64,000 nt of DNA from Sclerodactyla briareus (Eukaryota > Echinodermata > Holothuroidea > Dendrochirotida > Sclerodactylidae): the NCBI GenBank assembly GCA_026419785.1, contig JAODTK010005665.1:62001-126000 (forward strand). The letters run 5' to 3'. Made by a program: the position numbers and the translations under genes. Under the pieces are notes generated by a model that was given only the letters and a program-made list of their open reading frames with translations, was not told the origin of the DNA and made no database searches. Positions 1,476 through 59,720 of this stretch are shown here, piece after piece. Each line of letters starts with the position of its first letter. The first letter of the stretch is position 1.

Positions 1476-1700
1476 TTTGACTCCCCTAATTGGTTAAACC
1501 ATCACAATTTCCGTTACTATACTTTGCTGTCAAGTATGGATCTCCACACCCTGGTTTAATTCACTTGCATATCTTGCAAAATAGGGGCAGGGGAAGGGGG
1601 GAAGGGGGCGGGTGGGAAGGGGGCGGGTTCATATCGTCAGCAGTGTTGGACCTTAAAGTGGAGCTTTTAGCAGAAGAAAACAAGATGATATAATACTATA
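1476..1700 (+). other. Conserved upstream segment of FReD copy 1 (possible first coding exon)
   Basis: This block recurs upstream of FReD copy 2 (17,740-18,015) and copy 4 (59,463-59,720, minus strand). Copies 1 and 2 share an open stretch translating to SSAVLDLKV followed by an acidic, Glu-rich run. That would suit a short helical or coiled-coil N-terminal region, which invertebrate FReD proteins often have, but I see no signal peptide and no confident splice sites. In copy 3 the block appears to be deleted. It may be an exon, a 5' UTR or just duplicated non-coding DNA. Confidence 0.25.
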
Positions 1701-1885
1701 GTTACTCTCTCATCTGCGCAATCGCAGCTGGGGCAAGACACAATATAATCGGATAATAATTAGCAGTGTCCGCACTGAAAATGGATGAAATAGGAAAGGA
1801 GAAGTGAAAATAAATTATAGCCCGAGTCTGTAATCTTATCATTTTGTCATACCGTCAAGCTGATATCATGTTATTCTGGTTTCAG

Positions 1886-1922
1886 AACGCACGGACCAGT
1901 GACAGAAGTTGCGGTCAACCTG
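1886..1922 (+). CDS. FReD gene copy 1, mini-exon (37 nt)
   Basis: A short block is bounded by a good acceptor (TTATTCTGGTTTCAG) and a donor (GTAAGA). The equivalent blocks in copies 2 and 4 have the same boundaries. In the frame that joins exon A it reads NARTSDRSCGQP plus one base. That extra G joins AT at the start of exon A to give an Asp codon, so the phase is right. It would encode a short Ser/Asp-rich linker ahead of the first FReD. The identification rests on conservation and phase, not on a known domain. Confidence 0.45.
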
Positions 1923-2398
1923 GTAAGAGCATTGTAGTGTTCAGTGCTACCCTATAGGCGTAGTGGAAGTTTATTTTTTTTAATACAACCCATCGTTTAC
2001 CGAATACACCAACGCCATTTGCTAGGCATACAGTGTGTCAAAAACAGTATGTGGGAGGTTCCTCAAAATAAATCGTTGGTCGTTATAAACTTGTACGTAT
2101 TGCTATTGAGAAGAAAAAACACAGAACGAAGATTGGATTATTATTCTCGGCTTCGAAACTGTTAAAAACCATTTCTGCCCAGAAATGTGTAAGCTGACAT
2201 CGATACGTCCGCAGGATTCAGAATTATTATATCGAGGAGAAAAAAGAGATTGCTTTGAAATGGTTGTTCCAAAATGACCAAGAGAGAGAAAGAACGAGAT
2301 AAACATGTATGAACTAAAGCTATGCAACTAAAGCCGAGTGATCGAGTACCTGAGTACCAAAATACTACTTATGGTTACTGCAATCGTTTCGCCACCAG
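1923..2398 (+). other. Intron between mini-exon and exon A, copy 1
   Basis: Non-coding sequence between the GTAAGA donor and the TTTCGCCACCAG acceptor. Its 3' half resembles the same intron in the other copies (ATATCGA(A/G)GA..AAA blocks and a GAGAGAGA-rich stretch). No separate feature is seen. Confidence 0.4.
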
Positions 2399-2572
2399 AT
2401 TCATCCTATTTCTTCTACCACCAATCCGAGTACCCGAGAGACTGCAATGAGGTTCATGAGCAGTGCCCATCTAATAACTCCAGTGGCGTTTACTTCATCA
2501 AACCAGATGGTATCGAGAACCCTCTGAAGCCTATTGCAGTGATGCTGCACGGTGGTTCATCGGGTGGAACAG
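2399..2572 (+). pseudogene. FReD gene copy 1, exon A (start of first fibrinogen-like domain), damaged
   Basis: It follows the acceptor TTTCGCCACCAG and reads DSSYFFYHQSEYPRDC, then a stretch ending SSGVYFIKPDG. This is the canonical beginning of a fibrinogen C-terminal-like domain, in which the first Cys forms a disulfide and GVY.I.P.G precedes the YC..D.GGWT motif. After KPDG the frame slips: the expected FEVYC...GWT reads LKPIAVMLHGG instead, so a net 1-nt change lies near 2,525. The exon ends at a GTATGT donor. Copies 2, 3 and 4 carry the same exon. Extracellular lectin module; this copy probably cannot be read through unless the indel is a sequencing error. Confidence 0.75.
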
Positions 2573-3488
2573 GTATGTATCCCCGTTTGGGGTATATTGC
2601 GATGCTCTTTATATCTGTAGTTTTCGTCAACCATTTGTACATTATTTCGGGCTAATCACCTATGTTTTTGTAGCGAAAGACAAATCTAAATGAACATCTC
2701 TTTCGAAAAAAATCCGACATCCAGGTAGAAATTCGTCGTTGGAATGTACATAGGGCATATTGAGGGAGTGGGATCAGTAGTGGAAACCTTCGTAGAGATC
2801 ACGATACCTACTTGTAATGATCTCCTCCACCCTATGTTAGTAGGAGAACATACGTCAATATCATGAACTAGCCATGTCCTTTGTCACAAAAGTAGGTGGG
2901 GTTCGCCTGTGGTGGCATTAGATTTAGATAAATTAAAATGCTTCCCTTTCCTTCCCGTCGCCCCGCACCCCCCCCCCCTTCCCCCTGTTTTGTTTTGTTG
3001 GTTGGTTTTGGTGGTTTGTTGTTGTTTTTTCATTCATTATTTAACTCCGCAATCTGCCGCTGTGCAGCCATCTCCTGAATAAACAGCTCTCCCAGCAGAT
3101 TTTTACGTGATTTGTCATTATTGCGAATTTTACCTGTATACCATTGAAGTAAGAAGACACTATTATGTTTGTTTCCTCTGTTTCAGCAATAAAACTGTTT
3201 TAACCTACAGGTTTTCCTCCTAAAGCGTCATCACTTTGTTTCCTACTGAAATTCCCTTTCATGTTTGTATACACATCTATACATGGGGGTGACGACACTG
3301 GGTTCAACGTTTAAACTTTCGCATGTTATCCTGTACACAAGCACAAACACACAAACGCGTGCGCACGCACACACGATTCGGAATCAACACCATGATTCGA
3401 TTAAATTTGATTAAATTAAAAGCGTGGTGTACCCCAGTTGTAAACAACACTTAAGACGATATTTTGGGGGCGTTTTTTTCTTGTGAAG
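2573..3488 (+). other. Intron A-B, copy 1
   Basis: Contains a C tract near 2,970, a GT-rich stretch (2,985-3,030) and a short CA/CG alternating tract at 3,341-3,375. The CA tract lies in the same intron as the longer CA/TG microsatellites of copies 2, 3 and 4. No gene is seen. Confidence 0.5.
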
Positions 3489-3876
3489 ATAATACGACGA
3501 CGAAGCAACGATGGTACCGTTAATTTCAGCAGAGACTGGGATAGCTACAAGATTGGTTTTGGATTCCTCTCTCACGATTTCTGGTTGGGAACAAACGGGC
3601 TCCTTCATACTTTGGCAAACCGAAGAACTATAACTCTTGATAGCGTTGACCCGCCATAACGGAACTGTGTTCAATGTGTCTTTAACCGGCTTCTTTATCA
3701 CGGATGAATTCAGCCAACTTAAACTGTTCGGTCAGGGTGGCGGTGGTCCAACTGATTGTATGGATGTATACAATTCCGATTTCTAGAGACAGTGGGGTCT
3801 ACACCATCAAGCCTACTGACTGGCCGGGGCAGCGTTTAGTGTCTACTGTAACATGACTGACGGGGGAGGATGGACA
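3489..3876 (+). pseudogene. FReD gene copy 1, exon B (middle of FReD-1 plus start of FReD-2), damaged
   Basis: The reading begins RRRSNDGTVNFSRDW, then YKIGFGFLSHDFWLG, the fibrinogen-domain core (QRR.DG.V.F.R.W..Y..GFG....EFWLG). The frame is then lost near 3,630 and a stop falls shortly after. Intact stretches reappear in other frames, ending AFSVYCNMTDGGGWT just before the GTAAGT donor. Intact copy 3 shows that this exon should be 129 codons, phase 0 at both ends. Here at least two indels break it, one beside GATTTCTAGAG at about 3,780. The minus-strand open frame over this region is only a shadow. Confidence 0.8.
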
Positions 3877-3932
3877 GTAAGTGTTGTGATAATCATTATT
3901 AATATATTGTTATACTATGTGTCATGTGATCA

Positions 3933-3961
3933 GATAATAATAATAATATAATAATAATAAT

Positions 3962-4002
<41 letters not shown>

Positions 4003-4003
4003 A
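3933..4003 (+). repeat. (AAT)n microsatellite in intron B-C of copy 1
   Basis: About 70 bp of AAT/ATAAT units directly upstream of exon C. Copy 2 has an equivalent tract at 21,211-21,283, with the same flanking sequence TACCCCGGTATTAAATGCAT on its 3' side. Copies 3 and 4 have only short, degenerate ATT runs at the mirrored place. Confidence 0.9.
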
Positions 4004-4041
4004 CCCCGGTATTAAATGCATGAATGTATAATTTCTCAAAG

Positions 4042-4307
4042 GTTTTTCAGAGACGTATTGACGGTAGCGTTGATTTCTACCTTGGGTGGGACGAATACAA
4101 AGAAGGCTTCGGAGATGTGGAACACGAGCACTCGCTCGGAAACGAACAACTCTATTACCTGTCGAACCAGAGAAGATACCAACTTAGAATTGATTTGTAA
4201 AACACGAGTGGGATATCCGTTCTACGCGAAGTTCAACTCCTTTAGAATTGACAGCGAGGACGATAACTATCGGCTGGGCGAAGTAGGAAACTACAGCGGA
4301 AATGCTG
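4042..4307 (+). pseudogene. FReD gene copy 1, exon C (middle of second FReD), with stop
   Basis: It follows TTTCTCAAAG and reads FQRRIDGSVDFYLGWDEYK, then EGFGDVEHEHSLGNEQL, matching the fibrinogen-domain core (the usual HWLGNE.. is HSLGNEQ here). A TAA stop interrupts it at about 4,197 where copy 3 has Val-Val, and a 1-nt insertion follows near 4,210. The frame recovers over ...NYRLGEVGNYSGNAG before the GTAGGT donor. The length, 266 nt, is one more than the 265 nt of intact copy 3. It is therefore a clear FReD exon with two inactivating changes. Confidence 0.85.
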
Positions 4308-6137
4308 GTAGGTGTCAACATAATCTGGGCAAGTAGGTATATGAATATATAGGATTTGTCATACAGACTTCTTTCAATGTTATCGGTAGTACATCGCCAT
4401 CCTCAAAGCTGCCCAGCGTCATGAGGAAGACGAATGTCAACATATTCATGAATGACCACCAGGAAGGTTCAAGTTCGTACAGGAAAAGAAGTTCGGATAA
4501 TGGCAACCCGGGTCCATCTCGTACCTCCAACTGGGTGTTTCCTGATTGGCTGCTCGTATTGTATGAAATCGATTGTGTTCTTTGTTAGGGTTAGGAATTA
4601 AAAGAAGGATCCGCTTAGCGTTATCCACTAAACGGAATTCTTGTTCACCAAAATGCATGTTAATTTTGGAGTGTTAGGACGGTGGTTGCGTGGTGTTAAC
4701 TCACAGATGGAATAAGTAAAAATATAAATGCGTGATGCACCAGTGAAACAGACGTTTGAACGGCCTCCATACTTCGAAAAAGGTATCCAAACGGTCGTCC
4801 TGGGCACAGTCCCTGATTTGTCATTCTAAGAAATATCTTGTGGAATCAATGTCAAGTTCTTCGAAGACTTCGGGTCTGCAGACCTTCCGAGAATTAAAAA
4901 TCTAATCGCATTTCTGAATTCTACCCGTAGACATGCCCTCATATGGAAATTATTTCTTGTGACCTACACGATCTGATGAAATGTGAATAATTCAAAATCC
5001 ATTCGTCGACGAAATACCATCAGAAAAGAGAATAAGTACACCCAAACGTTTCAATTCACTTCCATTGATATGCTAAGCCAGCATAATGACCATCAAGTCA
5101 TTTCCTAAATTTGCGTATTTTTCTCACTATGGACAGATGGAATATTTTATAGAATGTAAGAATTTAATGATCGTTTCCATGCTGCTGACCGATGTACAGG
5201 CTAATTCAAGTGAAAGCGCAGTTTCTAAAAGTACAATACACACACGGCGAATGCCTCATGTGTGTGTATAAAGGTGCATGGTTTGGATGTCACTCCGTCC
5301 AAAGATATATATATATGGCATGTATAATTGTACAACAGTACTATTGGATGAAAATTGTAGGTTTACAACCCTGCGTTTATTACCATTACGTATTTCGAAC
5401 AATATGCTGCAAATTTAAAGCGCATGTTACGAAACTTACTCATGATTCGAGATTATAATATGTTGGGTGATATAGAATGAAGAAACAACTGAATGCTGAA
5501 TAGAATATATTCTGAAAAATTCTAAAATACTGAATCTGTTATCAGCTGTGTTGCCTTATGCTATAACTGGGCGTAAATAAATGTGACGAAGAAATAGAAT
5601 GAGGGAGAGCCCTTCTCAGTTCATGACCATGTGACCTGACTGACGCAAGGTGAGTGGAATTCAAGTGCAGGGTTCAAGCTATGGATTCGATTCTATTACA
5701 ATTTACACTTTGGAAAGAACACGAGGGTTATAGGAATCGCCCATGGACTACAAGATTAGTGTTTCCATTTCCCAACTAAGGCACAAACATAGTAAATATG
5801 TTGAGTCATGACCCTGCATTGATAATAAGCAGAGATGTTTTACCATAAGATGAATGATATGGCAGCCATATACAGTTGCAGCCTGCTCTGCCATTCATTC
5901 CATAGAGAAATCTACGTCTTTAATTTGTAACACCGCCCTGAAAAAGTGTTCAAAAACTCGAATACCAACATGTTTGCTGGTTGACGGCCCAGTGGCACTG
6001 TTTTGGCGTAGGTGAACGTACGAGCTGCTGAATTGAAAACATCGGTAATAATGGTGATCCCAGGTGGTAGCAGAAATGATAGGACGCTAGAGAGTGCAGT
6101 ATAATAATGGCGTAGAAAGCATCTAACTCGTCCACAG
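4308..6137 (+). other. Intron C-D, copy 1
   Basis: A 1.8 kb intron with no recognised gene. Near 5,790 (around the bases ACATAGTAAAT) lies what looks like the empty TA target site of the MITE found in copies 2 and 3. Confidence 0.5.
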
Positions 6138-6402
6138 ATGTCTGTTATGAAGATGGCTATCCTCTCATCTATCATCAAGGATCTGAGGTCTCCACCTAAG
6201 GACAGGGACAACGACGATTTTGATTATCCATTCGATAATTACACCTTTGACGAAAATTCCTGTGCACAGTGGAATCGGGGTGCCTGGTGGTACAGTGATT
6301 GTTACTACTACACCTTGGAACGGCGTACAGGGATGACTTTATAATTAGTTCCCTACCTGCCGTCATTTTACTTTCAGTGAAATGAATCTTCGGCCAATTT
6401 TA
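6138..6402 (+). pseudogene. FReD gene copy 1, exon D (C-terminal part of FReD-2), frameshifted
   Basis: It follows a CGTCCACAG acceptor. Taking the phase left by exon C, it reads DVCYEDGYPLIYHQGSEVST and then hits TAA. One extra C (CACCTAAGG against CACTAAGG in copy 3) breaks the frame just before the calcium-site motif KDRDND. That motif survives in the next frame, followed by CAQWNRGAWWYSDC, the conserved Cys-Trp-Trp-Cys segment. The end reads FTFSEMNLRPI, the usual MK.RP C-terminus, but the stop seen after RPI in copies 2 and 3 is missing; the next in-frame stop is near 6,430. A good FReD exon with at least one inactivating indel. Confidence 0.8.
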
Positions 6403-6944
6403 AGTTTGAACATTCAAAGAATTGTCGACTGAAAACCCTTTTGTCACTTCCTGACGCGATAGGTCTTTCCTTTTATTATCCGATTTATGGGAAGAATATA
6501 TTTGCCGAAGGGTAGCGTATATTTTCTGTGAACGTACATTTTCATTACCGGCACGGATATTGCCGATTGTTGGTGCCGTCAGCCCCTCCATTCAGTTAAT
6601 AATGCAGCTAATTCTCCTTTTCCTTGTTTTTCCATTTCAATTGTTAAATTTAGAAGGCCGATATCCCATTTATGAAGAGTAATAACTAACATCGCGGTAC
6701 AAATGGAAACACAAATTGGCAGTGTGTTGTCATATCAGTGGAAAGTTAGTCCATGTGTTAATAGGTCTCAGGTGTTGGAATAAACGCCATATCAAGTTCA
6801 GAAATCTTCATCAGGAAATTCGTTAAGTTAATTTGACTTTGGGTGACAGATCGAAAATGAGGTCCTGGCAGTAATTCTTCGAATCCGATACATTAGACAG
6901 ATTGGTGAATTCTACGATGAAATGACATTTCGTCAATGAGTCAA
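6403..6944 (+). other. 3' flank of FReD copy 1
   Basis: Homologous to the 3' flanks of copy 2 (24,112-24,590) and copy 3 (34,325-34,815). A shared landmark is a GGGT.ACNGATCGAA block followed by TAATTCTTCGAA. Probably 3' UTR and downstream DNA. I could not place a polyadenylation signal with confidence. Confidence 0.5.
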
Positions 6945-7365
6945 TGAGTAATAATAATAAAATTAAATGATAATCATTCATGCGCCCGTCTATCTAGCGA
7001 ACTAATCCGAGGCGCAGATACGAAGCAGAAACAAAGATCTAAGTCCTATGAAACACTTTCCTAAACAGAAAGGATTCAAGTGAGATCTGAAAGTGAAGTT
7101 GCAATTCCTAAAACAAAGTGGCAGATCATTCCAAACCCTGGAAGCGGTGGTGGCAACAAACGATTTCCATGAGTGGATGAGGAACCTACAACACCAGAAG
7201 AGATTTATCACAAGACCAAAACGTACGTGCAGGGACATACTGAATAATCAGAGTAGTGATGCACTCAGGTGCGCTTCCATGCATAGCCTTAATACGCTCG
7301 CGGATTGGAAGCCAGTGTAAATCTTAGAGAATTGGCGTAATGTGCTCCGATTTCTTGGTATCAAT
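6945..7365 (-). mobile_element. LINE 3'-end fragment inserted in the copy-1 3' flank
   Basis: The minus strand reads ASRVWNDLPL and then FRSHLNPFCLGKCF, a typical non-LTR retrotransposon C-terminus (SR.WN.LP...R....F...LK..LF). A stretch reading GGAAGCCAGTGTAAATC near 7,305 resembles one at 51,350 in the right-arm LINE region. The fragment interrupts sequence that is continuous in copies 2 and 3, so it is an insertion specific to copy 1. It is too short to be active. Confidence 0.55.
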
Positions 7366-7815
7366 CGACATACAATACTCATAATCACCGCAGTCAGTGG
7401 ATATTGCTCACTTTTTTATCACTGTTATTAGTCGCCACAACCATTGGCGTCTTATAACCCAATTTCATATCTCACAATGCTGACAGTGTTCATAGTCCAA
7501 CGGCATGTAAAAATACAATGCCCTCGCCAATTGCACGACGCACCCCTGTTCTCTAGGCAGGGTGAGTCATTGTCAGAATCATACAATTTGTGTACACGTT
7601 CTGCACCACCCATGGTCACTTAAATGACTTACAATTCTTTGAAAACGACCCACTGGTCGGTCAACTTCTATCATTTTCAGCTTCGTGACTGACCATTAGA
7701 GAAAGTGACGCTCACGTGAGTCGCTTTGGATTTGACAACGAATCACATTTGACCTGCCGTGCCCAGGTTTATATCATTGGGGAGGGGGCAATATTGCACT
7801 TGACAGGGCAGTGTA
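7366..7815 (+). repeat. Continuation of the FReD copy-1 3' flank (shared with copy 3)
   Basis: Matches the reverse complement of about 33,650-34,240 in blocks, for example ATCAATCGACAT, CGCTTTGGATTTG.CAACG and CCCAGGTTTATATC. This shows that the duplicated unit extends about 1.4 kb past exon D. No coding signal. Confidence 0.6.
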
Positions 7816-7821
7816 TAATCC

Positions 7822-10105
7822 ATGAATTGCCGGATAAGGAGCTCCCGTAACGTTGCTTTTGACCAATTCAGGGATGGGCTCAACACTGTGTGTCCTTCTG
7901 CTGGCGATGGTGACGTTAACCAAAGTATTGACGACTATAACACCTCACTGAGTGAGCTCCTTGGACGGTATGCGCCATCAAGAAGACGAAGAGTAAATCC
8001 CCACCCGGCGCCTTGGCTATCTGATGAGATCATCAATGAACGGAAACTGAGAAGGAAAGAAGAGCAAATAACCGCAATTCAAAATTATTCGTCGATAAGC
8101 AGATCTACAAGTCCCAATCCAGAAGGGTTGCCACCGGCGATTTTTCAGGCACGAACACTTCCTTACATCGGAATCGGCTACTGAATGCGCACGCAACCCA
8201 AGGCCCCTGTTTCCAAGTGGAATCAAGGAACTATCTGGAGAATCCTCCTCTGCACAATTCATATTTCCGTCTGCCATGCCAAGCGAGGATCTACCTAACA
8301 AATTTGCCATCCATTTCGCGCAGAAAGTAGAGGATATCATGTCCAGTATAACACCACCAGTACCTACTCCAGAGCACCAAGGAAGTTCCCAGTGACCGCA
8401 GCTGAGGTCCTCTCTACCTTCCGTGAGTTGTCTGCAGAAGAAGTATTGAAAGTAGTTCTCAGCCTGACGTCTAAACACTCCATCACTTAACCCTATCCTA
8501 CAACATGGCTGATAAAGAAATGCAAAGCTGAATCCTTTTTCTTTTCTGCAACATTACAAATGCATCACTTGTCAGTGGGGTATTTCCCAGTCTATGTAAA
8601 AATGCAGTTGTGCGACCTGTCTTGAAGAAGGAGGAAGGTTTGGAACCTGAATATTTGGGGAACTATAGACCGATATCCAATTTACCTTTTGTATCGAGGT
8701 TTCGAAAGTGCGTCCTTAACCGAGTTGGTGGTCACATATAATGAATAATAACGCTCTCTTTACTCGTATCAGTGTGCTTACCGTATGGGTTACAACACTG
8801 AATCAGCCCTACTGAAAGTACAGAATGACGTTCTTCATGCCATTGATACCAGAAAATGTGTACTTTTGGTTTTACTAGACTTGTCGTCGGCTTTCGACAC
8901 CGTAGACCATAATATCCTGCTTTCTAAATTAGAAACTGAATGCAATATCAGCGGCACTCCTAAATTGGTTCAAACTACTTGAAAGACCGTTCACGAATAA
9001 TCAAAGTTTCTGATAATGTGTAAAATCCCATGGCCAGTATGGTGTTCCACAAGGATCTATTCTGGGTCCCGTTCTGTTTTCTTTGTACACTTCCTCTTCT
9101 GGGAGGATTCATCAACTCTCATGCTATCCTTTATATGTTATATGTTGATGATACCCAACTGTACTATGCTTTTAATTATAAGGATGTTGAGAATGCTGTA
9201 TCAAAGATGGAATCTTGTGTCCGCGAGGTTAAGAGATGGATGTGTACAAATTTTCTTAAACTTAATGATGCTAAGACAGAAGTAATTGTCTTTCACAGTA
9301 AGACCAGTGAAGTGCCTGAACTTAGAATTTGTCTTTGGAAATATGTGATGAGGTTATACATTCTTCCTCTCATGTTAGAAATCTTGAGGTTTATATGGAT
9401 TCTCATGTTGCGATGGATGAGCAGGTTATAGTCACATATGTAAATCTGCTTGTATCACATTCGGCAGTGGGGCAACTACGTAAGATCTGGATGGCCTGTA
9501 GTAGAGATGCTGATTCATTCTGTTATAGTCTAGCCGTCTGGATTATGCTAACTCCCTACTTTATGGTATTCCATGCTATCCAACTAAACAGGTTACAAAA
9601 TATTCGGAATTCAGCAGCTCGAATCGTCCGTAGGGCAGGAAATTCACGCCAGTGACACCTATTCTCTGTGAGTTGCACTGGCTGACTGTACATAAGCGTA
9701 AAATTTATAGGATACTTGTTATAGTTTTCCGGGCTCTTGAAACTGGTCGCCCTAGCTACTTGAATAGCATTTGCGCGAAAGCAGTACAAACAGGCCAACT
9801 CGCACGCAATACAAGTTCCAACTCGAAGTACCCATATCTCGAACTAGGACAGAAGTTTCCCAGTGTTATGCACCTCGGCTTTGGAACTCGCTCCCCACTG
9901 ATCTCAGATCATTGGATTCCCTCGTCGATTCAGGGGTTTCTAAAGCCCCTTTCTTTTCTCTCAGTAAGGTACCTTCGCTTCAATCTATGCTTCTTATTTT
10001 TTATTGGTGTTTTACGTCACCCGTAAACTGGTAAAGCGCATTGAGCAGCCACTGGTTAAATATTGCGCTATATAATATAATTATATTATTAATTTTATTA
10101 AAAAG
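7822..10105 (+). mobile_element. Degraded L2/CR1-like non-LTR retrotransposon (reverse transcriptase region to 3' end)
   Basis: A broken reverse-transcriptase open frame spread over three frames. In order it shows the linker before RT (HPAPWLSDEI, about 8,005); the RT motif LLDLSSAFDTVDHNIL (8,875-8,925); a QGS.LGPVLF-like stretch (about 9,050); the catalytic YVDDTQLYY (9,145); NFLKLNDAKTEV (9,250); LNRLQNIRNSAARIVRR (9,585); LHWLTV.KR (9,675); and a C-terminus APRLWNSLPTDLRSL (9,870). The 3' end GCGCTATATAATATAATTAT, with an AT-rich tail at 10,066-10,105, is typical of L2-type elements. No endonuclease domain is seen, so it is 5'-truncated and dead. The tail lies just before the U segment. 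Confidence 0.8.
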
Positions 10106-10229
10106 GGATCCACACCTACAAGTTCGAAACGCAGTTCTGTGAAGTGTTCTGATTCGAATACACCTTACTGCCACGTGAGTATTAGGCTATTCTACCGATA
10201 TGGTCTATAGCACCGCTGCACTGGTTTTT

Positions 10230-10640
10230 AGAACACGAGACCGTGACAGTAAAAATAGAATTTACCTAAACCGTAGTTTACGGTAATTGCAATTTCAGGA
10301 AATGTCATAGCATTTGACAAACGCTGCTGTATTCCCACCATACTGACTGAAACCGTGCACACGAAGTATACTTTGAACATTATTCTTGTAGTACGTTCAC
10401 CTGAAACTATCACCTATGCACTGGTTAAAAATACATGGACGTGGCAGATAGACGATGAAATATGTGTTGAAGATCCTAAACCGTAGTCTGCAGAATTAGC
10501 CATTGCAGGAAATAATACACCATTTTCGACAAACGCTGTATTTAAACCATGCTGGCAAAAACTGTGTTCCCCGAGATAAACTTTGAACATTTCTCTCGTA
10601 AGACGTTCACCCGAAACCTCCGTAGATATCTGTCTGGAAG
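10230..10640 (+). repeat. Two tandem ~200-bp repeats at the head of U
   Basis: Each unit runs from CCGTAGT.T.C.G.AATT through a GACAAACGCTG block and an ACTTTGAACATT block to a CGTTCACC.GAAAC end. One is at about 10,270-10,415 and the next at about 10,480-10,625. The same pair is present in the right arm (49,700-50,060), so the duplication is older than the inversion. Function unknown. Confidence 0.6.
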
Positions 10641-13600: not shown

Positions 13601-14619
13601 ATTTGTGCAATTAAAAAAACCTCCTTTGCTCAAATATAATGTATTTCCCTCGAAATAACCCTGAAATTAACCTAAACCCAACCCCCAAACTGCGCACTGT
13701 CAATCACTTGCTTCCAAGCGCGCCCATTGGTCTCACAGCGGTTTCCCCCTTAGTTTTGACTGAACAGAACATAGTCCCAATAACGGGAGGACAATCCAGG
13801 CCATTCCTACTTCGAGCCGTCAATTTGGAAGACATGTTTCACCACCCCTAATTACGCAAAAACTACGAATTTTGTATGGGCGGCTATCGCCGCAAACATA
13901 AACAGTCGAAAACCCTGCAGCTCTTGCACTGACGGAAATAATGGTCATACACTTCCCGCCAACAACTGACACAACATGAAGCAACATGAAACGATTTATT
14001 AAATGAATGCAGGCGTTTTAATGTCACAAGTGATTTGTCCACACCACACCAGCTCGACGTACCATCCGCTGTTACGCTCGAAAATATATAGAAATTCCAT
14101 TAGCGAATTAACGTGCATTTCCTTTGAGTCTGCGCATTTTAAAATTTCCATCTATTCCATGGCCACTCACTTCATCATGAAGATGTGCTCCGTTTTAAAT
14201 ACCAATGGAATCATTCCACATTTGCTGATAGTTAACATGGGTATCATTTGGAATCCTGTTTCTCGATGTGCTATGAACATAGGAACATAGGAAGGCTTCA
14301 GCTAATCTGCGTAGGCTCTAGTGATTCACAATCAGCGGCTACAATATCGTCCGCAGTTTGTGTTGTCATTTTGCGCTTTCCCAGATTTGCTGAGAGCCTG
14401 CATGAGAACTCCACTCTAATATTTTTTTTTCCGACAAATAATATTTGTAAGGCTCCGACTATAGTTTTCCGACCTATACGATGAGTGAACCATTTTCCAA
14501 TATATTTTAATTGAGAAGTTGAGAAGTTGTTGGAGATACGATTTCGAACGCCCATATCTATTACATATAGAACCAATCGATACGGGGGAATAATTGATGA
14601 ATGTCTGTTTTAGAGATAA

Positions 14620-18015: not shown

Positions 18016-18140
18016 GTACTGAAAGCCTACGATTGAAAAATTATAAAACATAAAAGTAAAAATGATTAGGACAACCCGATACCAGTCTTTAATCTGGACC
18101 AATTTATCTTATATCAGCTGATATCTGGATTGGATTTCAG

Positions 18141-21173: not shown

Positions 21174-21210
21174 GTAAGTGTTCTGGTAATCATATTTATT
21201 TATGTCATGT

Positions 21211-21229
21211 GATAATAATAATAATAATA

Positions 21230-41076: not shown

Positions 41077-41099
41077 CTGAAATCAGAATTACAAGATGT

Positions 41100-42030: not shown

Positions 42031-42039
42031 TAGGTTTCC

Positions 42040-49699: not shown

Positions 49700-50070
49700 T
49701 TTCGGGTGAACGTCTTACAAAAGGAATGTTCAAAGTTTATTTCGGGGGCACGGGTTCTGTCAGCACGGTTGAAATACAGCAGCGTTTGTCGAATGGTGTG
49801 ATATTTCCTGCAATGGCCAATTCTGAAGTCTACGTTTTAGGTAATGGAAAAATATTTCATTCGTCCATCTGCCACCTGCACTTTACTATCAACTAAACCA
49901 GTGCATAGATGATAGTTTCGGGTGAACGTCTTACAAGAGTAATGTTCAAAGTATATTTCGTACGGTGAAATACAGCAGCGTTTGTCAAATGCTGTGATAT
50001 TACTTCAAAGGCAAATACCGTAGACTACGGTTCAGGTAAATTTATCCGTCTATCTGCCACGTCTGTGATC
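49700..50070 (-). repeat. Two tandem ~200-bp repeats at the head of right U
   Basis: Two units, each with TTTCGGGTGAACGTCTTACA, then AAAGT(T/A)TATTTCG, CAGCAGCGTTTGTC and a CCGTAG-type end, at 49,700-49,840 and 49,915-50,040. Mirrors 10,230-10,640. Confidence 0.65.
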
Positions 50071-50159
50071 TATTAACCAGTGCATCGGTGCTGTAGGCCG
50101 TATCAGTAGAAACGGCCTAATACTCACGTAGGTGTACTCAATCAGAAAACTTCACTACA

Positions 50160-52135
50160 TCTTATATAGCGCAGCAATATGCTAAAAGCATTTCTATGCG
50201 CTTTATAATGTCCCAAAGGGTCAAGCCAAAAAATGGGTTTTAAGCTTCCGCTCGAACGCATCCACATTTGGCGCTACCCTAATGCTGCGTGGAAGGAAGT
50301 TCCGAACCTGTGGGGCACTGGCATTAAAGGAGCCGGATCCCCTAACAGACATGTATCTGGGGCACTTGAGAAGTGTAGTGTCATCAGAAGAACAAAGTGC
50401 ACGAGCAGACGATAGGGATGAACCGTGTCATTCAGATACTGAGGTGTTATGATGTTACTGTCGAGAATTTTACAGACAGGAATGCATTGCGAATGTATTT
50501 CTGAACCGGAAGGGTAACCAGTGCAAATCAGTGAAGACTAAAAACAACTGTCACGCTTGTGCCCTCCATGACAGGTCTAGTCGAGTTGTCTCGCAACATT
50601 TTTAACCAGTGGATTTGATTCCTATGGGCAGTGCTAAGAAGTGAAGTACAATGATCCCGACGGGCCAGTACAAGAGAGTTAAAAACCATTTTACAAGCCT
50701 CTTCATTGATGTTGCGTCTGATATTACAAATAACGGAGAAATGAAGAGATGATGTTAGAGAAAAGTGTTGAGATTCGTCTGACTGATGATCGAACACGAC
50801 ACCCAAAATCCGGCTGTGCTTATTCGGATGGAGAGAGCTGTTGTCAACAGTCAACTGTGGCAGTATTTCATTACATTTAACGAAGTGCTGAGTGGCAGCA
50901 ACAAAAAAATTCGGTTTTGCTGTAGTTAAATTTCACTTACATTTGAGATGTGCAATAAGTATTATTAATGATAAAATAATAATAATATGTCTTGTGGAGA
51001 GCAAAATTCAGAACTGAATCTGCCCAATGCGCTGCCAGGGCAAAGGAGCAAAAAAATTAGTAGTTATAATACGACAGAAATAGGTGAGTTTCAAGATGTT
51101 CCTTGAAAGTGCTAAACGATTGGAGTGAACGTAGGTTGACTGGTAGGCTGGTTCATCGCGAGAGAAGGCACGGTCTTCGTGGGTCGGAATTCGGGATTGT
51201 GGAACGTCCAGGAGAAGCTGGTATTGGGATCGAGTAAGCGAGATTGTGACCTTTGCTGTATGATGTGCGAGAGGTAGACAGGCGTAACCAGTCTTAAGGG
51301 CACGGAACGAGTGACAGGATTTTATATTGGATTCGGTACTGCACCGGAAGCCAATGGAGAAATTTCAGAAGAGGTGTAATGTGATCTGATGTGGGCCTTT
51401 TTGTAACCATTCCCTACTTGATAGGGCGTTTTGGAGACTGTGCTAGGGGCCAAAACAGGCAAGCACGTTCGTCCTTTGGCGGCCAAGTAGCGACAGCTAG
51501 GTCTCTGGGATATGACTTTTTCCTGATAATACTGGTCACGTCATCAGCAGTAAGTAGTGGATTTGTCAACAACAGAGCACATGGCGGTGGTCCATAGCGC
51601 GTAGGCTTGGCAGGAGGTACCGGTAAGGTACTGCTCTGTTTATTAAATTCAGTCAGGATTTTGTTCACTTCTTGATAAAAGAAATGTGCGAAGTTGTTAG
51701 CCAACTGATGATCACTGTAAGCATTCGGAATGTGCTCACTGGGAATTAACAACTAAGAAAATTATAATGTAAATTTGTTGAATGCTTGTGAACATGTGAC
51801 ATGTCATATAGTAATTACGCTTTGATTGTTCGATTAGTTTTACAACTTGCTTGCACTGAGTACTGATGTAGATTTGTGTTGTCGACTTGCAGAGACGACT
51901 TATTCCAGCGTCTTTCCATGCGATAAAGCAGCATTCGAGCTTCGTGAATGTCGTCATTATACCAGGGGTTAGGTGGTCGGCCCTTAGAACTGATCGGCTG
52001 AAAAGTGGCATTCTCATCTAGGACATCCTTAGAAATGTTACAATAGGCATCGTACGAATTATTTGCAGGAAAGGACAACGTGATTGATTGCATCGTGCGG
52101 TTTGAGCTCGCAGCAAAACCGTCGGCGTCCATTCT
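50160..52135 (-). mobile_element. Degraded LINE complex between right U and FReD copy 4
   Basis: The minus strand, from 52,135 down, shows PPNPWYNDDIHEARMLLYRM with ERRWNKSSLQVD (linker before RT), then FAHFFYQEVNKI (51,650), a non-matching stretch at 50,950-51,420 that looks like another repeat, then GVVFDHQSDE with NSLVLARRDHCTSLLSTAHR (50,640-50,800, C-terminal domain). It ends near GCGCTATATAAGA at 50,160, an L2-type 3' end. The central RT core is missing. It occupies the place where exon D and the 3' flank of copy 4 should be. Confidence 0.65.
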
Positions 52136-52149
52136 TTTCAGAGATCGTC

Positions 52150-52814
52150 GTTTTACGCATTATGATCAGTTAAATGACAATCTATAATTTCTCGACTATA
52201 ACACAAGCTGATAATTCCGGCTATTCGAACTATGGGCTGTGTACAATGGATTCAACTGGAATATCGCCTCGTTTGCTGCTTCATTAGTCGGAGTTCTATC
52301 CTGACAATGCATCATAAGACATGCACATGAGGCGCTCGCCGTGTGTAGTTGACGTTCTTTGCTTTGGAATCGCAAACGCTCGAATTACCTGGTAGTTAGG
52401 CAATCGTCAGTGTAAGCGAATCAAAATGTTTCATAGTTAGGAAAGTACGCCAATACCCCAATTTAGGAAATGACTTCATGGTCATTACTTTGAGCTGAGC
52501 AATAACAATGGAAGTGAAAGTTCAAATGTTAGGGAATTTAATCGTACCGGTGTTTGCGGCTCCCGTTGATTTAGGGACGAAATTGATACATCTGGGGGTG
52601 TGCCCGGGCCGTTTGGAGACTTTGCTCGAAGTTATGGAAATGTTTAACGGCTGTTTAGTGTTGCTTCACATTACTGTTTGTCTCACTCCGTGAATCAACT
52701 CTAACCACCACCTCTCACCACCAGAAATCCACATTCATTTTTGCCGCACCTTTGAACAAGAATTCCCGTTATAGATACACTAATCCTAATCCCTCATCCT
52801 TGTCTAACCCTTAC
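52150..52814 (-). other. Remaining part of intron C-D, FReD copy 4
   Basis: Matches 36,120-36,960 of copy 3 (ACTGGAATATCGCCTCG, GGTGTGCCCGGGC.GTTTGGAGAC). Homology stops at about 52,150, inside the intron and before exon D, which I do not find. Confidence 0.6.
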
Positions 52815-52870
52815 CAGGGTTGTTTAGTGTCCTCGAAACCGCAGACCGGTCTCGAGACCAGCTTTTTTCT

Positions 52871-52919
<49 letters not shown>

Positions 52920-55000
52920 AACCCTTCTGGTCTCGGAAATTCTTCCGGTCTCGCTCCGAGACCAGCACAAAAATATTCGGTGTCGTCCCTTTTTTCTCTT
53001 CGGAATAATTCTAGTTCAGCAAAAATCATCCTGCAATTCATGTGTTGAGCTTTTGCTATGAACTAGCAATTGGAGTGGGCCTTTAAGTACTTGGTCGATG
53101 TGGGAAAGCGCCCAGGGCTTAGTACCCAAGGCCCAGTAATTTGTTGCGCGCTTCAAACGTGTGGCAGTCACAATAGCTTCATGGTCGACAACCTCAAAGT
53201 CCACAACAGTTCAGTAGGCAAGGAGGCAGAAGCCTGGTAACTGCTTCAATCGTAGGTGTTGCTTCACTTTAAGAATGCCTGTATTTGACAGTGGATATAT
53301 TAGGCATTAGCCAATCAATTGCTCCGAATAATTGTTATATGTCTGTTCAAACCCGAATAGTCTCCGTTCTTCCACTTCCACATTTTCGAAGCGTCAAGTG
53401 TTAGGGCTCTTCAATCTCATTTTTATCCACCTAATATATTGAACCCAATCATGATAGAAAAAGATGAATAAAAATAGAAACCCGGGCCCCTATAAACATG
53501 GGACCCCCGTTACGTATGCTACCCCGATACCAACTCCAGTAGGCACTGAACCCGATACCGGAGAGAAGAGAGGGATAGGTGAATCTTTAGTGATTTCAGT
53601 TACTAATTTAGTGGTGGGAGGAGGGAGCAGTAATGGTAATTAAATTATGCCAGTGACTGCCGTAGCCTAACGACTATCAATTATCATTGTTATGAACTGT
53701 GAACATGATTTTTGTTTCGATTTTCCAGATGGGTTAAACCTTATGACATTGGTACCATTTTCGCGAAAGTTGATCTCACATTGCTGGACATCCTTGAATG
53801 ATGAATTGTTCTCAGTACCTATTTTACATTTACCTTGGAATGCTTATTGGCTTACTTTTTCATGAAGTAGTCTCCTATGTCCAATCAATGGAGTATTTTA
53901 AGGTGTTAGAGCAATTCAGGTCTAAGATAGTAGTGCCTAGCCCCGTGGTGCCTTGTCTGTCCCAGGGTGTATCTGCTAGCTGTTATTAGTTGAGAAATCA
54001 CCACCTTAAACTGTACTGGTATTTTTAAAATGTCCACAAGTAAAACCTGGCCTACCCTGAATTCTCATTCCGGGGACACAGTGAAGGCCATAATGTTATA
54101 CCGTACATGGTATTGGAATTGGGTCATCCATGCTATGACAAAAGCGTATGTAAATGCATTTGAAGGGTCATTTATTGGTTTGATTTGATCTAGGGATGGG
54201 GCCTGGATGGAGACACCATAGCGTCCCCACCCTGGCCACATAAGGAAAGCGGGTGTCCTGGGGTGGGAGGGGAGGCATACGACATAAGAACTAATTGGAA
54301 TACCGAGACTGAGAGAGAAGATAAATAATTTCCTGGTTTAGGAGCCGTAGTATTCTGAATGCTGCATGAGGATGCAGAGAAGAAAGTCGCATGGCAATTG
54401 TTTACTGTTATCAGTTCATATTCAGTATGTTTAATGACATAGAGGTCATTCTGCAGCCTGCGGGGGCAAAAAAAGAAAAAGTCTTCACAATCCTGATTTT
54501 TACATTTCTTTTTAAATGTGATGAGCCATGAGGTTGTCTTTTTGGTTCATGGCTTCACCGGGGGGGGGATAATTTGGCGAACTGGGTGGAGGGGGGGGGG
54601 GGGGCTACCGGTAATGGTCATGGGTGCATCTCATATGGCACCACCCTTGATTTATGCTCTGTGGTTACACCTATTCCTCGTCGATTGTGGGGAATGATCG
54701 GGAATAAGAAGTGTTGACTTGTTGTGCAGATCTCGAAAAAGCAAATGTTCATTAGCAGAGGTTGTCTATTATGTCAAATAGAGCATGTGGGTGTAATAGG
54801 CCTACAATACAGTTTCGAATTGTTTGCCCCAACACTAGAGACATTTCGTCTCGGTCTCGGTCTCGGTCGCGGACCTTGCTGGTCTCGGTCGCGGTCTCGG
54901 TCTCGAAGTTTTTCTCCTGGTCTCGGTCTCGGTTCGGTCTCGAAACCCTCTGTTCTCGGTCTCCGGTCTCGGATTGTGCTGGTTTTCGACTAACCCACTG
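52815..55000 (+). mobile_element. hAT-like non-autonomous element with (GGTCTC)n subterminal arrays
   Basis: A 2.2 kb block absent from copy 3, where the flanks are continuous. It is flanked by a perfect 8-bp direct repeat, ACCCTTAC, at 52,807-52,814 and 55,001-55,008, which fits a hAT target duplication. The ends read CAGGGTTGTTTAGT...TCGAAACC and, reversed, CAGTGGGTTAGTCGAAAACC, a short imperfect inverted repeat starting CAG. Just inside each end lies a GGTCTC-rich array (52,851-52,965 and 54,846-54,975) in the same orientation. The interior has no recognisable transposase. Confidence 0.7.
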
Positions 55001-55237
55001 ACCCTTACAAAGAAACGCACCGATTCTCCCTCAATCCTGACCAAACGAGCACCCTTGTTTGTACAACATTCCAAAGACCCGCGTGGCCAAAATTCCGACT
55101 TCGCCTGTAACGCTCATAAACCGCCTGCTATAGTTGACGTATACGTTGATACACGACCCCCCCCCCCCCTCGATAAAAGTTATATAGACAACAAAGTCAC
55201 ATATATTTGTATACCTATTTGCCCATGATGTACACTT

Positions 55238-55499
55238 ATCGCATCCCCGCTGTAGTTTCCTACTTCGATCCGTCGAAGTTGTCGTCCTCGCGTTTATTCA
55301 CAGAGCTGACCTTCGCGTAAGTATGGATTCTCCCTCCGTGTTAACTACAATCATTCCTATGTTGTATCTTCTCTGGCTCGACAGGTAGTGAAGCTGTTCG
55401 TTTCCGAGCCAATGCTCGTGTTCCACATCTCCGAAGACCTTCTTTTTGTAGTCGGCCCACCAGTAGAAATCAACGCCCCCTCAATTACGTCTGGAAAAC
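55238..55499 (-). pseudogene. FReD gene copy 4, exon C, damaged
   Basis: It reads GTTTTCCAGACGTAATTGAG at the start, with RIDGS altered and bases missing. Blocks EHEHWLGNEQLHYLSS and NYSGDA-like are seen in separate frames. The donor is lost: GATGCGATAAGTG replaces GATGCCGGTAAGTG. With exon D missing as well, the second FReD of this copy is not functional. Confidence 0.75.
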
Positions 55500-55766
55500 C
55501 TTCGAGAATTGATCAGGAGTTTTTAATCCCGTTGTTTCTTCCAATAGATGTTTAAACAGCAATGTAGATCTCGTTTGAGGCAGGAAGGCTCGACATATAG
55601 CACAGCTTTGCATGACGACAGATCTACATAATCAAGTTCTAACCTGCTGAAGTATTATTACTATTATGTTACTATTCATTATCATTGTTAATAGTTTATC
55701 ATCTTATCACATTGCACATAACATACACAATTCCCGAATAATGCTCATGATTAACTCAACACTTAC

Positions 55767-56151
55767 TGTCCAGCCTCCCCCGTCAGTCATGTTACAGTAG
55801 ACCTGAACGCCTGACTCCGGGCCAGTTAGTTGGTTTGATGGTGTAGACCCCGCTGTCTCTAGAACCAGAATTGTAGACATCCATACAATCAGTTGGAACA
55901 CCGCGCCGTGACCGAACAGTTTAAATTGGGCTGACTCATCACTGATGAAAAGTCATTGATCACATTGAACACAGCCCGGTTTTGCATGTCATCTCGATCA
56001 AGAGCCTGATTTCTTCCTGGTTTGTTCAAGTATGTATAGCCTTTCGTTTCGCTCCATAATTCTTGAGCGAGAAATCCAAAACCAATATTTGTAGCTGTCC
56101 AGTCTCTAGTGAAAATTAACGGTGCCATCGTTTGCTGCGGCGTTGTATGAC
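55767..56151 (-). pseudogene. FReD gene copy 4, exon B, frameshifted
   Basis: 385 nt against 387 in copy 3. The first part reads FTRDW, then NIGFGFLAQELWSETKGY, YLNKPGR, then NRAVFNVINDF and FKLFGHG-like blocks across two frames. The second part reads TDCMDVYNSGSRDSGVYTIK in pieces and ends VYCNMTDGGGWT before GTAAGT. The seam between the two FReDs is the same as in copy 3. The sequence is more divergent than copies 1-3 in the core (ELWSETKGYTYL for DFWIGNERLSYL). Confidence 0.75.
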
Positions 56152-56303
56152 CTTCAAGAAAAAAACACTAACGTTCCGTAAAGGGTGTAACACGATTTAA
56201 ATTTGATAGAATCCAATCGAAGATGATCTTATTCAACAGATGAAAATCTCCACTCCCGAGCGGTTGGCGATCAGTATCGTAGTGTGTGCGTTGTGTGCAT
56301 GTG

Positions 56304-56336
<33 letters not shown>

Positions 56337-57311
56337 TGTGTTTGTGTGTGTGGGTGTGCATACACGCTCGCGGGAGTACAGTAAGTTAAATGTCCTAACC
56401 AGTTTTTCGTCACTTCATGAATGAGTATGTGTACACACATGCACAGGAATAGTAGTTAAAATAAGTGATACAGTAGTAGGAAGTGAAACGGAAGTTTAAA
56501 AACGGGAAAGCGCTCAGACTCCTTCCACAGTGGATGATGGTGGATGGATGGGGGGGGGTGTGGGATTGCTGAAACTGAGGAATTTATGAACCTAATAGTG
56601 ATTTTTTTTTTACGCAGTGAAATCCATGTGAAATTTACAAATTCTGTAGAACAATGGATTCCTAAACGCTCGTTGTTTTGATTCAAAAGATTACAAATCC
56701 TCATAATTCCACAAAGACACAGACACCTTATTCCTTGACAGGGGCGGGCCCCAGGAATGGCCCGACATGGGGCCAGTAAGAGCTTCTAGAGCAAGCGGAC
56801 ACTCAACCCTACCTTCTGGACACATTTGTTGAGTCCCATTTTGGCTCGGTTCATGCCTTCTTTCCCAAATTTCTTTTTTATGCTTCTCCAACTTGTCTTG
56901 AAGAGGATCTGTGAAAACGGATGGGGGAAGGGAGGGGGTCCACCACACAACAGCTAAGCAAAGGGGTTCTTAACCTATCCCTTTCCAGTACTCCCCAAGG
57001 CTGTACTTCCAACGACAAATTCCTACTAGTAATATCCTAATTTGTGTGATTTATAGGCTGAGACGGATCAGCTGTAACCCCCACCTCCCCCCCCCTCCCC
57101 CCACCCACCCACCCTATTTCGATTGACTGCACTTTCTGCGCATTTCTCTATGAGACAAGAACAAATAAGTATTATTTCAGATGTGTTTTTCACTACGAAT
57201 AAAGTGGTACTTAGCCCCAATAACGTACAAATGGTTGACGAAAATATGGACTCCCATCCAGGTATAGGAGCATCGGCGATAGACATAAAAGGAAAAGGTA
57301 AATTGACATAC
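56152..57311 (-). other. Intron A-B, copy 4
   Basis: Includes the TG microsatellite at 56,283-56,355 and a G9 tract at 56,550. It lacks the LINE 3' fragment found in copies 2 and 3. No gene seen. Confidence 0.5.
56283..56355 (+). repeat. (TG)n microsatellite, intron A-B of copy 4
   Basis: GTGTGCGTTGTGTGCATG followed by about 20 TG steps. Same intron as the CA/TG tracts of the other copies. Confidence 0.9.
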
Positions 57312-57479
57312 TGTCCCCCCCGATTAACCATCTGAAGCAGCACTGGATAGACTTCAGATGGTTCCGTACCCATCTGGCTTGATGAGTAAACGCCACTGAG
57401 TTTTACTGAATAGACATTGGTCGTCAAGCTCCTTGCAGTCTCTCGGTACTCGGATTGTGGTAGAAAAACTAAGTTGAAT
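57312..57479 (-). pseudogene. FReD gene copy 4, exon A, frameshifted
   Basis: It follows GGTTCCGCAGCAG. One base is missing in the CCC of PRDC (GAGTACCGAGAGACTGC), and further small deletions follow, so the open frame reads QSEYRETARSLTTNV instead of QSEYPRDCKELDDQC. The tail TCGGGGGGGACA replaces GGGTGGACG before a GTATGT donor. It is 168 nt long. Confidence 0.7.
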
Positions 57480-59235
57480 CTGCTGCGGAACCAAGATAAT
57501 CAAGGATGATTGTTGCCATCAGGCAAGTCCTCGATCACTCCACGTTATATTTCAGACTGATTTGAAACTCTTTTCCGGCTCCAGTCGCACGACAGTTCAT
57601 ACATGCTCTCTCTTCTATTTCTTGCATAGTCCGAGGCACTAATCGTAAAGCAGTATTTTTCTTCTTTTTGGATCTAAAACCGCTAGAGTCTAATGTACGC
57701 CAAGTGCCAGATAGCCGGATACAAATAATTACATGCCACAGAAAATACTAGCATGTGGCTGGGAAGTGACCTTTCGAGTCAAGGATGATGAACCCTTCTC
57801 TCTTCTGCCTTTTAACCTCAATCACAATACACACAAGCCTCTGTAGCTTGCATTGTGACAGCACTTTATTTATTTGTGGGAGCTTTCCCGCATAACGGTT
57901 CTAACATACAGGCCTGACAAACGAGGTTCATATATTATTTTGGTCGACGATGCTGTATTAAATAAAATTTCCACTACCTGGGCAGCACTGAACACCGCCT
58001 GTGTTGGCCATTGGCTATACCAATAGGCAAGAAGCGACACACATTTACCTTATAATTTCTTTGTTTATTTAACTCTGTTTAGCAGTTCTTTTCAACTGCT
58101 AAAAATTATAGGAGAAGATAAGATAGCAAATGCTTTAAAAAAAGGTTGAAAAACAGGGCTGTTGCAGCGTTCCTACATAAATCACTCAAACATCATTCCC
58201 CACGGGAAGCTTCATATTTTTCCAATTTATCGAAGGTGGCGGGAAGAGGTGGGGCGTGGCCAGGGGCACATCTTCCTACTTTTTTCCCAAAATATAAAAA
58301 AGTGTTTCCTTCACTTTGGAATGGACCCTGTTCTGGTTACAGTTATTGAGATTATAATGATATTGGGTCAAAGGTCAGGAAGAAACAACGGCAGGTCGAC
58401 GTTGAACGTACAGTTGCGGAACGTCTTTTCGAAACGCCCCTGCCGAGAATTACAAAACCTACCAACACGGGCCCCCCCCCCCCCCCACCTAATAACATCA
58501 AAAAGCATGTGCATGAATGCTTGCGTTTTCAAAATTGGGTGACAGCTTTAAAAAAATGACGTACGTTACCATCGAATCATTCACCAGTACATACGGCACT
58601 GCCCCTTTATCGATACCTAAATGTGGGGTTGGGGTTTATCACACACGCAGACGATAACTTTCAAATTGCCTACCTGTCCCAGCGTCAACTTCTTGTGCTG
58701 AGCACCGTATCCAGCATGAAGGCACAGTACAACACCTTTTTAGAGGCCTTTTGGGATCCGACGGAATAGAACTCCGATCTCCCGATTGATAAGCTACTTC
58801 CACCACCTGCCCCTCGGTAAATGGGTCAGGTACAAGTATATAAAAAATTTGTAGCTAAGTATGCTACTGTAACGGTAAATACTGTGTTATCCATCTCGTG
58901 GATTTGTAGAATAGGCAAGATTATAGGAATAATAATAACAAAATATAGATGCTACCGTGATAACAGTGAATTGTACTGTGCCATCCATACCATCCTTGAA
59001 TATAGGCACTTCCAATGAGTTTCGGTTATATATATTTTTCGATTTCGAAGTGAAGTAATTAACACACAGCTGTGACTCCCATGCTGACCTCTAATCATGA
59101 AGGTACGAGGTCTTGACTTCAAAATTCAGGTTTAACCACAAATAGATACCCACCACCCCGAGAAAATTACGAGTCCTTCGCCAGAGAAAATGCAACAGAT
59201 CGTCATCGAACGTGTAACTGGTTGCAGATACTTAC
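57480..59235 (-). other. Region between exon A and mini-exon, copy 4
   Basis: Longer than in the other copies. Blocks shared with copies 2 and 3 lie at 57,600-57,800. The rest (58,100-58,800), including a C16 tract at 58,472, shows nothing I recognise. Confidence 0.4.
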
Positions 59236-59269
59236 CTGGCTGACCGATATTTCCGTCACTCTGTGCGCT
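59236..59269 (-). CDS. FReD gene copy 4, mini-exon (34 nt)
   Basis: Acceptor TAATTCTGGTTTCAG and donor GTAAGT are both good. It reads SAQSDGNIGQP plus one base: same frame and same terminal phase as copies 1 and 2, but exactly one codon shorter. An indel of exactly three bases is what coding constraint would leave. Confidence 0.45.
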
Positions 59270-59462
59270 CTGAAACCAGAATTACGAGAAATATTAACTT
59301 GACGGTATGGCAATGTAGTAAATCAACTAAAATTGTATCGAACTATCTTTTTACTCCTAGTTTTCTTCTACAATTCAGGCCCCGGCACTGCTGATTATGA
59401 TCCAATAATGACGCAGCTTGCCTGTGCAGCAATTGCGCAGATGAGAAATTATTCTCTGATGC

Positions 59463-59720
59463 TCATAGCATCCACTTCTGGAGCTTAGGTTCAACACTGA
59501 TGGAAGTATTTATCATGATAACGAGAGCGTGGAATAGTTCGAAGACCGGGCGTTTCATTCGAATGTGCGCTTGTTCCCCCACGCCCATTTTGCTCTTGAG
59601 ATATGCAAATATGTGAAATAAACCAGCGTGTGGAAATCCATCGGTAACAGCGAAGTATAGTAACGGAAATTTTACCAGATAAACCCGGGTGGCCACTCAA
59701 CTCTTTGCAATTCCCTAATT
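59463..59720 (-). other. Conserved upstream segment of FReD copy 4
   Basis: The reverse complement matches 1,496-1,560 (AATTTCCGTTACTATACTT, GCTGGTTTA.TTCAC, TTGCATATCT). The SSAVLDLKV block is present only in a decayed form (ATCAGTGTTGAACCTAAGCT). Confidence 0.4.

Follow-up and report, generated by a model that had tools for sequence, protein, structure and literature searches.

The question raised by this locus is whether four related gene copies that stand in mirror order form one palindrome, or whether the mirror is left over from separate duplications. The locus lies in 64,000 nucleotides of the holothuroid Sclerodactyla briareus (assembly GCA_026419785.1, contig JAODTK010005665.1, positions 62,001 to 126,000), and this whole stretch is called the window here. 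A first-pass annotation had described four lectin genes with a fibrinogen-related domain (FReD), arranged as a single imperfect palindrome of about 58 kb. We numbered the copies 1 to 4 from left to right, each lying in the unit of the same number. Our analysis leads us to think that one animal gene of about 13-15 kb has probably formed a small cluster here by birth and death, and that the mirror symmetry is a side effect with no separate function. That is, the locus looks like an ordinary gene graveyard produced by old duplications, not like an active palindrome.

The mirror layout itself was reproduced. At E<=1e-5, self-BLAST of the window gave 39 self-matches in inverted and 22 in direct orientation, and none arose in any of 10 random windows simulated under a Markov-1 model of it. 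Inverted collinear pieces joined 10,139-24,974 to 50,155-33,554 with coordinate sums of 58.5-60.5 kb, and weaker inverted pieces joined copy 1 to copy 4 (sums 57.4-61.2 kb). The alignments contained four related copies of the fibrinogen domain (PF00147), copies 1 and 2 on the plus strand and copies 3 and 4 on the minus strand, as annotated. They also contained the annotated mirrored segment U, which is present upstream of copies 2 and 3 in opposite orientations. The matched pairs proposed for exon B (20,758/38,191), exon C (4,042/55,499) and exon D (23,843/35,097) fit these alignments, and the pair proposed for U (10,850/49,490) agrees with them to within a few tens of bases. The near-constant sum of matched coordinates was likewise recovered, at about 57-61 kb. 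We infer, however, that this constancy adds little, because copies lying 17-18 kb apart, two in each direction, would yield it whatever their origin.

Within the window, units 2 and 3 form two collinear reverse-complement arms, and the spacer between them is itself unmirrored, with no mirrored left-right match better than E 6.4. This is the arrangement of an inverted segmental duplication with a spacer. In the self-BLAST, the copy pairs 1-2, 1-3 and 3-4 matched more strongly than the pair 1-4, and the pair 2-4 was comparable to it. These match strengths were the first sign that the locus consists of four units and not of one palindrome.

The relative ages of the copies were examined by K80 distances (d12 denotes the distance between copies 1 and 2, and so on) over 471 columns shared by all four copies, exons B and C excluded. 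The restriction to shared columns lowers every distance. The distance between copies 2 and 3 was 0.164, whereas the other five pairs gave 0.331-0.354. Copies 1 and 4, the outer pair, had a distance of 0.354, while d12 and d13 were 0.331 each; the 95% interval of d14 minus the mean of d12 and d13 was -0.067 to 0.105. The split 14|23 was obtained in 1000/1000 block bootstraps, and an alternative choice of 331 columns gave 0.20 for the pair 2-3 and 0.32-0.38 for the others. Therefore, copies 2 and 3 are a young pair, and the pair 1-4 is not special. The symmetry thus has two ages, and the description as a single palindrome could not be upheld. The equal ages that a 58-kb palindrome duplicated as a whole block would have were not found, although conversion between the inner arms could mimic this result.

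The same distances bear on an assembly artefact, in which two haplotypes of a highly heterozygous animal were joined head to head. Such a mis-join would by itself look like the mirror layout, but it predicts that d14 and d23 are about equal, and d23 was smaller than d14 in 1000/1000 block bootstraps, which supports the doubt about a haplotype fold-back already expressed in the annotation. Usual allelic divergence in animals lies below 17% substitutions, and the arms, with 17% substitutions and 209 events of insertion or deletion (indels) over 8,277 columns, exceed it. We consider a mis-join to be very improbable.

The identity of the inner arms was 70.7% over all 14,089 aligned columns and 79.9% over the 9,648 alignable columns, and it reached 88% in the best 500-column windows. 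The annotated difference of roughly 10 percent is thus adequate for the best stretches and too small for the arms as a whole. Identity rose to 91-94% in blocks within exons B and C, within U (both exon S and intron 1) and around 19.8 kb. Gap-free identical runs did not exceed 46 bp between the arms; over all copy pairs the longest measured 52 bp (copies 1 and 2, exon C), and neither the arms nor the runs of identity gave a sign of recent conversion. Such short runs speak against recent conversion of long tracts, not against older, patchy conversion.

These values can be set against the idea of an active palindrome, in which conversion between the arms diversifies immune lectins. The domain family is of the immune type, and arm-to-arm conversion is known in palindromes, according to excerpts of two reports (PMC7953838, PMC3403216). 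However, the arms are about 80% alike in alignable columns, which is far from near identity, and long identical tracts are absent; in addition, three of the four copies are broken in exons B and C. The earlier suggestion of a palindrome whose arms exchange sequence also meets the difficulties that copies 1 and 4 are not especially close to each other, that about 20% of the alignable columns differ and that the longest run is so short. An active palindrome of this kind is hardly credible to us.

The gene reads as five exons, S, A, B, C and D, with junction phases 0, 0, 0 and 1, which encode a truncated and a complete fibrinogen domain. Matches to PF00147 fall in three open exons of copy 3, namely B, C and D; the pieces of this copy score 99.3, 96.1 and 25.7 bits, and the joined exons score 224.7 bits (cut-off 22), placing the product above the Pfam cut-off among the Fibrinogen_C proteins. 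Exon B fuses the middle of the first domain to the start of the second without an intron, and the first domain has no C-terminal part. Exons C and D complete the second domain. By reading, exon A seems to start the first domain, and it gave no Pfam match in the scanned pieces of copies 1 and 2.

U had been regarded as a separate non-coding segment, but a likely first exon lies inside it. The three copies of U in units 1, 2 and 3 align across an ATG, then a hydrophobic stretch and then a GTAAGT donor, and just past this donor unit 1 ceases to match the other two units. Exon S of copy 3 fits, in phase 0, an AG that immediately precedes TATCCGAGAGAC, where exon A begins. Since the three units share this exon and its donor phase fits exon A, we read U as the promoter region, a signal-peptide exon and a long intron 1, and in this sense U most likely belongs to the gene. 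The signal-peptide label is suggested by the composition of exon S. Among units 1, 2 and 3, exon S is open in copy 3 only; for copy 4, nothing resembling exon S at a level above chance was detected from 59.7 to 64 kb. A two-arm codon scan of U gave only weak candidates for other coding content.

Several further features of U were observed. Two blocks, 10,480-11,110 and 11,910-12,250 (partners at about 49.2-49.8 and 48.1-48.5 kb), are 87-93% identical between the arms; the former includes the likely promoter and exon S, and the remainder of the two blocks is intronic. In both arms, the outer edge of U bears a tandem duplication of about 200 bp (10,208-10,617 and 49,698-50,090), and a 92-bp tandem pair lies at the left edge of unit 1 (106-285). 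The U-like piece at 59.8 kb was considered as the minus-strand U of unit 4; it aligned poorly and matches U on the other strand, and it may be a rearranged or an unrelated dispersed piece.

The condition of the copies does not agree with four lectin genes, as none of the four reads continuously through exons S-A-B-C-D. Frameshifting indels were counted against copy 3. Copies 1, 2 and 4 had 8, 12 and 13 of them in exon B, and in exon C they had 1, 9 and 10; exon D had 6 and 14 in copies 1 and 2. The numbers vary with the gap costs chosen, and some of the indels are near neighbours that compensate each other. Exon D of copy 4 was not found, so that there was none to score. Copies 1, 2 and 4 are disabled by frameshifts in exons B and C. 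Noise of raw reads was considered as a source of the indels; the numbers of copy 2- and copy 3-specific non-coding indels were similar (24 and 18 in three-way columns), and substitutions between the arms exceeded indels 6.7 to 1, both of which contradict it.

Copy 3 is the best-preserved copy, and it is not intact either. The in-frame TGA of its exon A stands at a site where the other three copies have TGC. Furthermore, splicing at the usual acceptor (35,097) puts its exon D out of frame, and the product ends at 253 residues even without exon A. An AG located 16 bases downstream of this acceptor restores the frame of exon D, and the omission of exon A keeps the frame. Copy 3 could therefore encode 329 residues only if exon A is skipped and the acceptor of exon D is shifted.

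We then compared the rates of change of copies 2 and 3, polarising their lineage-specific changes with copy 1 as the reference. In non-coding sequence, the ratio of copy 2- to copy 3-specific changes was 82:71 of 1094 columns, and in coding sequence under the same filter it was 83:52 of 983 (chi2 7.1). In the unfiltered exons B-D, it was 89:37 of 884 (binomial p 4e-6), a ratio that differed from the non-coding one (p 0.004). Copy 3 thus lags behind copy 2 in exons B-D, and in non-coding sequence the two kept an equal pace. Within copy 3, exons B-D changed more slowly than the non-coding sequence (37/884 vs 71/1094, p 0.028), the column filters of the two differing. In contrast, exon A of copy 3 carried 13 changes in 137 columns, which is above its exons B-D (p 0.017) and does not differ significantly from its non-coding sequence (p 0.21). 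These values would fit a copy 3 that was held back in exons B-D and not in exon A.

Two fates of copy 3 can be considered from these results. In the first, copy 3 is living and was remodelled after the inverted duplication: exon A would be dead and skipped in frame, and exon D would start from the new AG. We hold this to be possible and rather doubtful. In the second, copy 3 has also died, only recently, which is compatible with the birth-and-death explanation of the cluster. The broken exon A, the out-of-frame exon D and the lack of clearly synonymous changes agree with recent death, while the open exons S, B, C and D and the slower change of exons B-D do not. We lean toward death, which is as likely as survival or likelier.

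Several observations weigh against the birth-and-death reading as set out above, besides the dependence of the frameshift counts on alignment. Only 1,100 of the 9,881 alignment columns are usable in all four copies. Exons B and C alone weakly prefer the split 13|24 (629/1000 bootstraps, against 310 for 14|23), which could reflect old conversion between copies 1 and 3; their exons B and C are 85-86% identical, a value that hints at a mosaic and is probably due instead to slower exon change in both copies. The identity of the inner arms is patchy, its variance being 3.9 times that of shuffled columns (reached in 0/500 shuffles), and the longest identical run with gap columns removed was 69, against a shuffled mean of 35 (0/500). 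Old conversion or conserved intronic blocks are possible causes. Unit 4 showed no U in the expected orientation by self-BLAST. At the two mirrored junctions (units 1/2 and units 4/3) lie remnants resembling long interspersed nuclear elements (LINEs), and a single weak match of 41 residues (E 0.009) was found between their translations. As for copy 3, its specific changes are not clearly synonymous (17/37 at third positions), and its singletons in exons B and C comprise 2 synonymous and 7 non-synonymous changes. Finally, the exons of copy 2 outpace its own non-coding sequence (89/884 vs 82/1094, p 0.045), which hints at some misalignment around indels.

Some of these points, namely the patchy identity and the junction remnants, would be expected if a tandem pair (unit 1-unit 2) had been duplicated as a whole block in inverted orientation, giving a true 58-kb palindrome whose inner arms 2 and 3 were later homogenised by conversion. 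The order, orientation and spacing of the copies match such an event, and the split 14|23 is predicted by it too. However, d14 is not below d12 or d13, and a d23 of 0.164 demands conversion across the entire inner arm of about 15 kb, including U, where no gap-free identical run exceeds 46 bp. The junction remnants gave no match between their open reading frames (ORFs) at E<=1e-3 and no DNA match past 47 bp at the arm edge (E 0.37). A single shared insertion is thus without DNA support beyond these 47 bp, and the weak translated match leaves it open. Taken comprehensively, duplication of the whole block seems unlikely to us, and we prefer a birth-and-death cluster with a younger inner pair. The features of the window are listed in Table 1.

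Table 1. Features of the window, with positions counted from its first nucleotide.
Feature	Positions	Strand	Description
Unit 1	1506..7819	+	Older paralogue, from the region before exon A into the 3' flank; exons B and D frameshifted, frameshift and stop in exon C
Unit 2	10139..24974	+	Decayed left arm of younger inner inverted duplication, with upstream region, exon S, intron 1 and exons A-D
Spacer	24975..33553	.	About 8.6 kb between the inner arms
Unit 3	33554..50155	-	Right arm of inner inverted duplication; best-preserved copy
Unit 4	52169..59671	-	Exons B and C frameshifted; exon D not found
U fragment of unit 1	191..472	+	Expected orientation; decayed exon S from ATG at 386, frame broken by 1-bp deletion
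Exon S, copy 2	10740..10818	+	Signal-peptide-like; in-frame TGA just upstream of GTAAGT donor
Exon S, copy 3	49497..49568	-	Open, signal-peptide-like, 24 codons; phase 0 GTAAGT donor
Exon A, copy 3	39711..39848	-	In-frame TGA and frameshifts
Exon B, copy 3	37805..38191	-	Middle of first domain and start of second; open
Exon C, copy 3	37214..37478	-	Middle of second domain; open; GTAAGT donor
Exon D, copy 3	34819..35081	-	From the downstream AG
U-like piece	59844..59952	+	110 bp, similar to intron 1 part of U; orientation opposite to unit 4
LINE-like remnant	7819..10026	+	Between units 1 and 2; RVT_1 matches below Pfam cut-off
Presumed LINE-like remnant	50528..52159	-	Between units 4 and 3

The remnant between units 4 and 3 is one that we take to be LINE-like, and no RVT_1 match was found in the four ORFs scanned there. 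Another LINE-like remnant lies in the right arm (42,073-42,832, RVT_1 below the cut-off), and 32,240-32,536 in the spacer is presumably LINE-like, with no Pfam match. An inverted dispersed repeat, 71% identical, connects 27,552-27,901 in the spacer with 63,321-63,686 in the right flank. No RNA families or tRNAs were found in the window.

The His of the CHxSNLNG stretch is a feature of FReD lectins that bind acetyl groups (ficolin, FIBCD1, TL5A). In the product of copy 3, a Tyr is aligned with the His of the CHTSNLNG stretch of FIBCD1, beside an insertion in an expanded stretch; a KDRDND stretch, which we take to be putatively calcium-site-like, is present. FIBCD1 (PDB 4m7f) was the closest solved structure by sequence to the second domain of the joined copy 3 product (217 residues, E 4.2e-47). 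Its solved chain has one domain, compared with two here.

As far as excerpts of the reports go, invertebrate FReD families resemble this locus in their Fibrinogen_C domain and clustered, lineage-specific copies. Biomphalaria pfeifferi has 103 FReDs (PMC10075465), and among the fibrinogen-related proteins (FREPs) of Anopheles some members have more than one fibrinogen (FBG) domain, mostly not full (PMC1242226). The gene here differs in its two fibrinogen domains and mostly broken copies. Molluscan FREPs carry one or more immunoglobulin superfamily (IgSF) domains before the fibrinogen domain; no IgSF domain was found above the cut-off in the 29 distinct ORFs scanned, of 329 ORFs of at least 60 aa in the window, and one Integrin_A_Ig_2 match among them reached 14.1 bits (cut-off 24). 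The gene is thus at most a possible FREP of the snail type.

The inner pair can be compared with human fold-back duplications, which in the available part of their description are inverted copies around an unduplicated spacer of 0.77-70 kb (PMC3907307), a range that includes the 8.6 kb found here. Those cases are recent and many lie beside terminal deletions, whereas the pair here is old, and no homology was seen at its junctions beyond the arm ends. Sex-chromosome palindromes also have inverted arms around a spacer, but the human Y arms are 99.9% or more identical via conversion, as stated in the part consulted (PMC3403216), compared with about 80% here. The VCBP genes of amphioxus (PMC2632668) and Sp185/333 of sea urchin (PMC5103432) are, in the sections available, families of the immune type that show duplications as well as inverted repeats and changing copy number, as here. 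There, in contrast, VCBP variation is described between haplotypes, and the Sp185/333 duplications look recent and pseudogenes are almost absent. No title on a FReD palindrome was among the matches listed in our literature search, which is no proof of absence.

From the above results, we propose the following history. The ancestral gene would have coded for a signal peptide followed by two fibrinogen domains, the first truncated and the second complete. Older duplications may have produced copy 1, copy 4 and the ancestor of copies 2 and 3. A later inverted duplication that left the spacer unduplicated, as in fold-back repair, would have given rise to copies 2 and 3. Copy 2 seems to have decayed from early on, and selection may have continued to act on copy 3 for some or all of the time.

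A mirror in the coordinates is not enough to prove a single palindrome, and the distances of mirrored pairs help to separate the cases without reads. The age of an inverted duplication can be compared here with that of older neighbouring copies. If copy 3 is indeed living, its product would be a secreted protein of 329 residues in which the remaining half of one fibrinogen domain precedes a complete domain, and selection would be keeping one copy among three dead siblings. The locus thus lets birth and death be followed in a family of the immune type, with one copy that was free and one that was apparently constrained.

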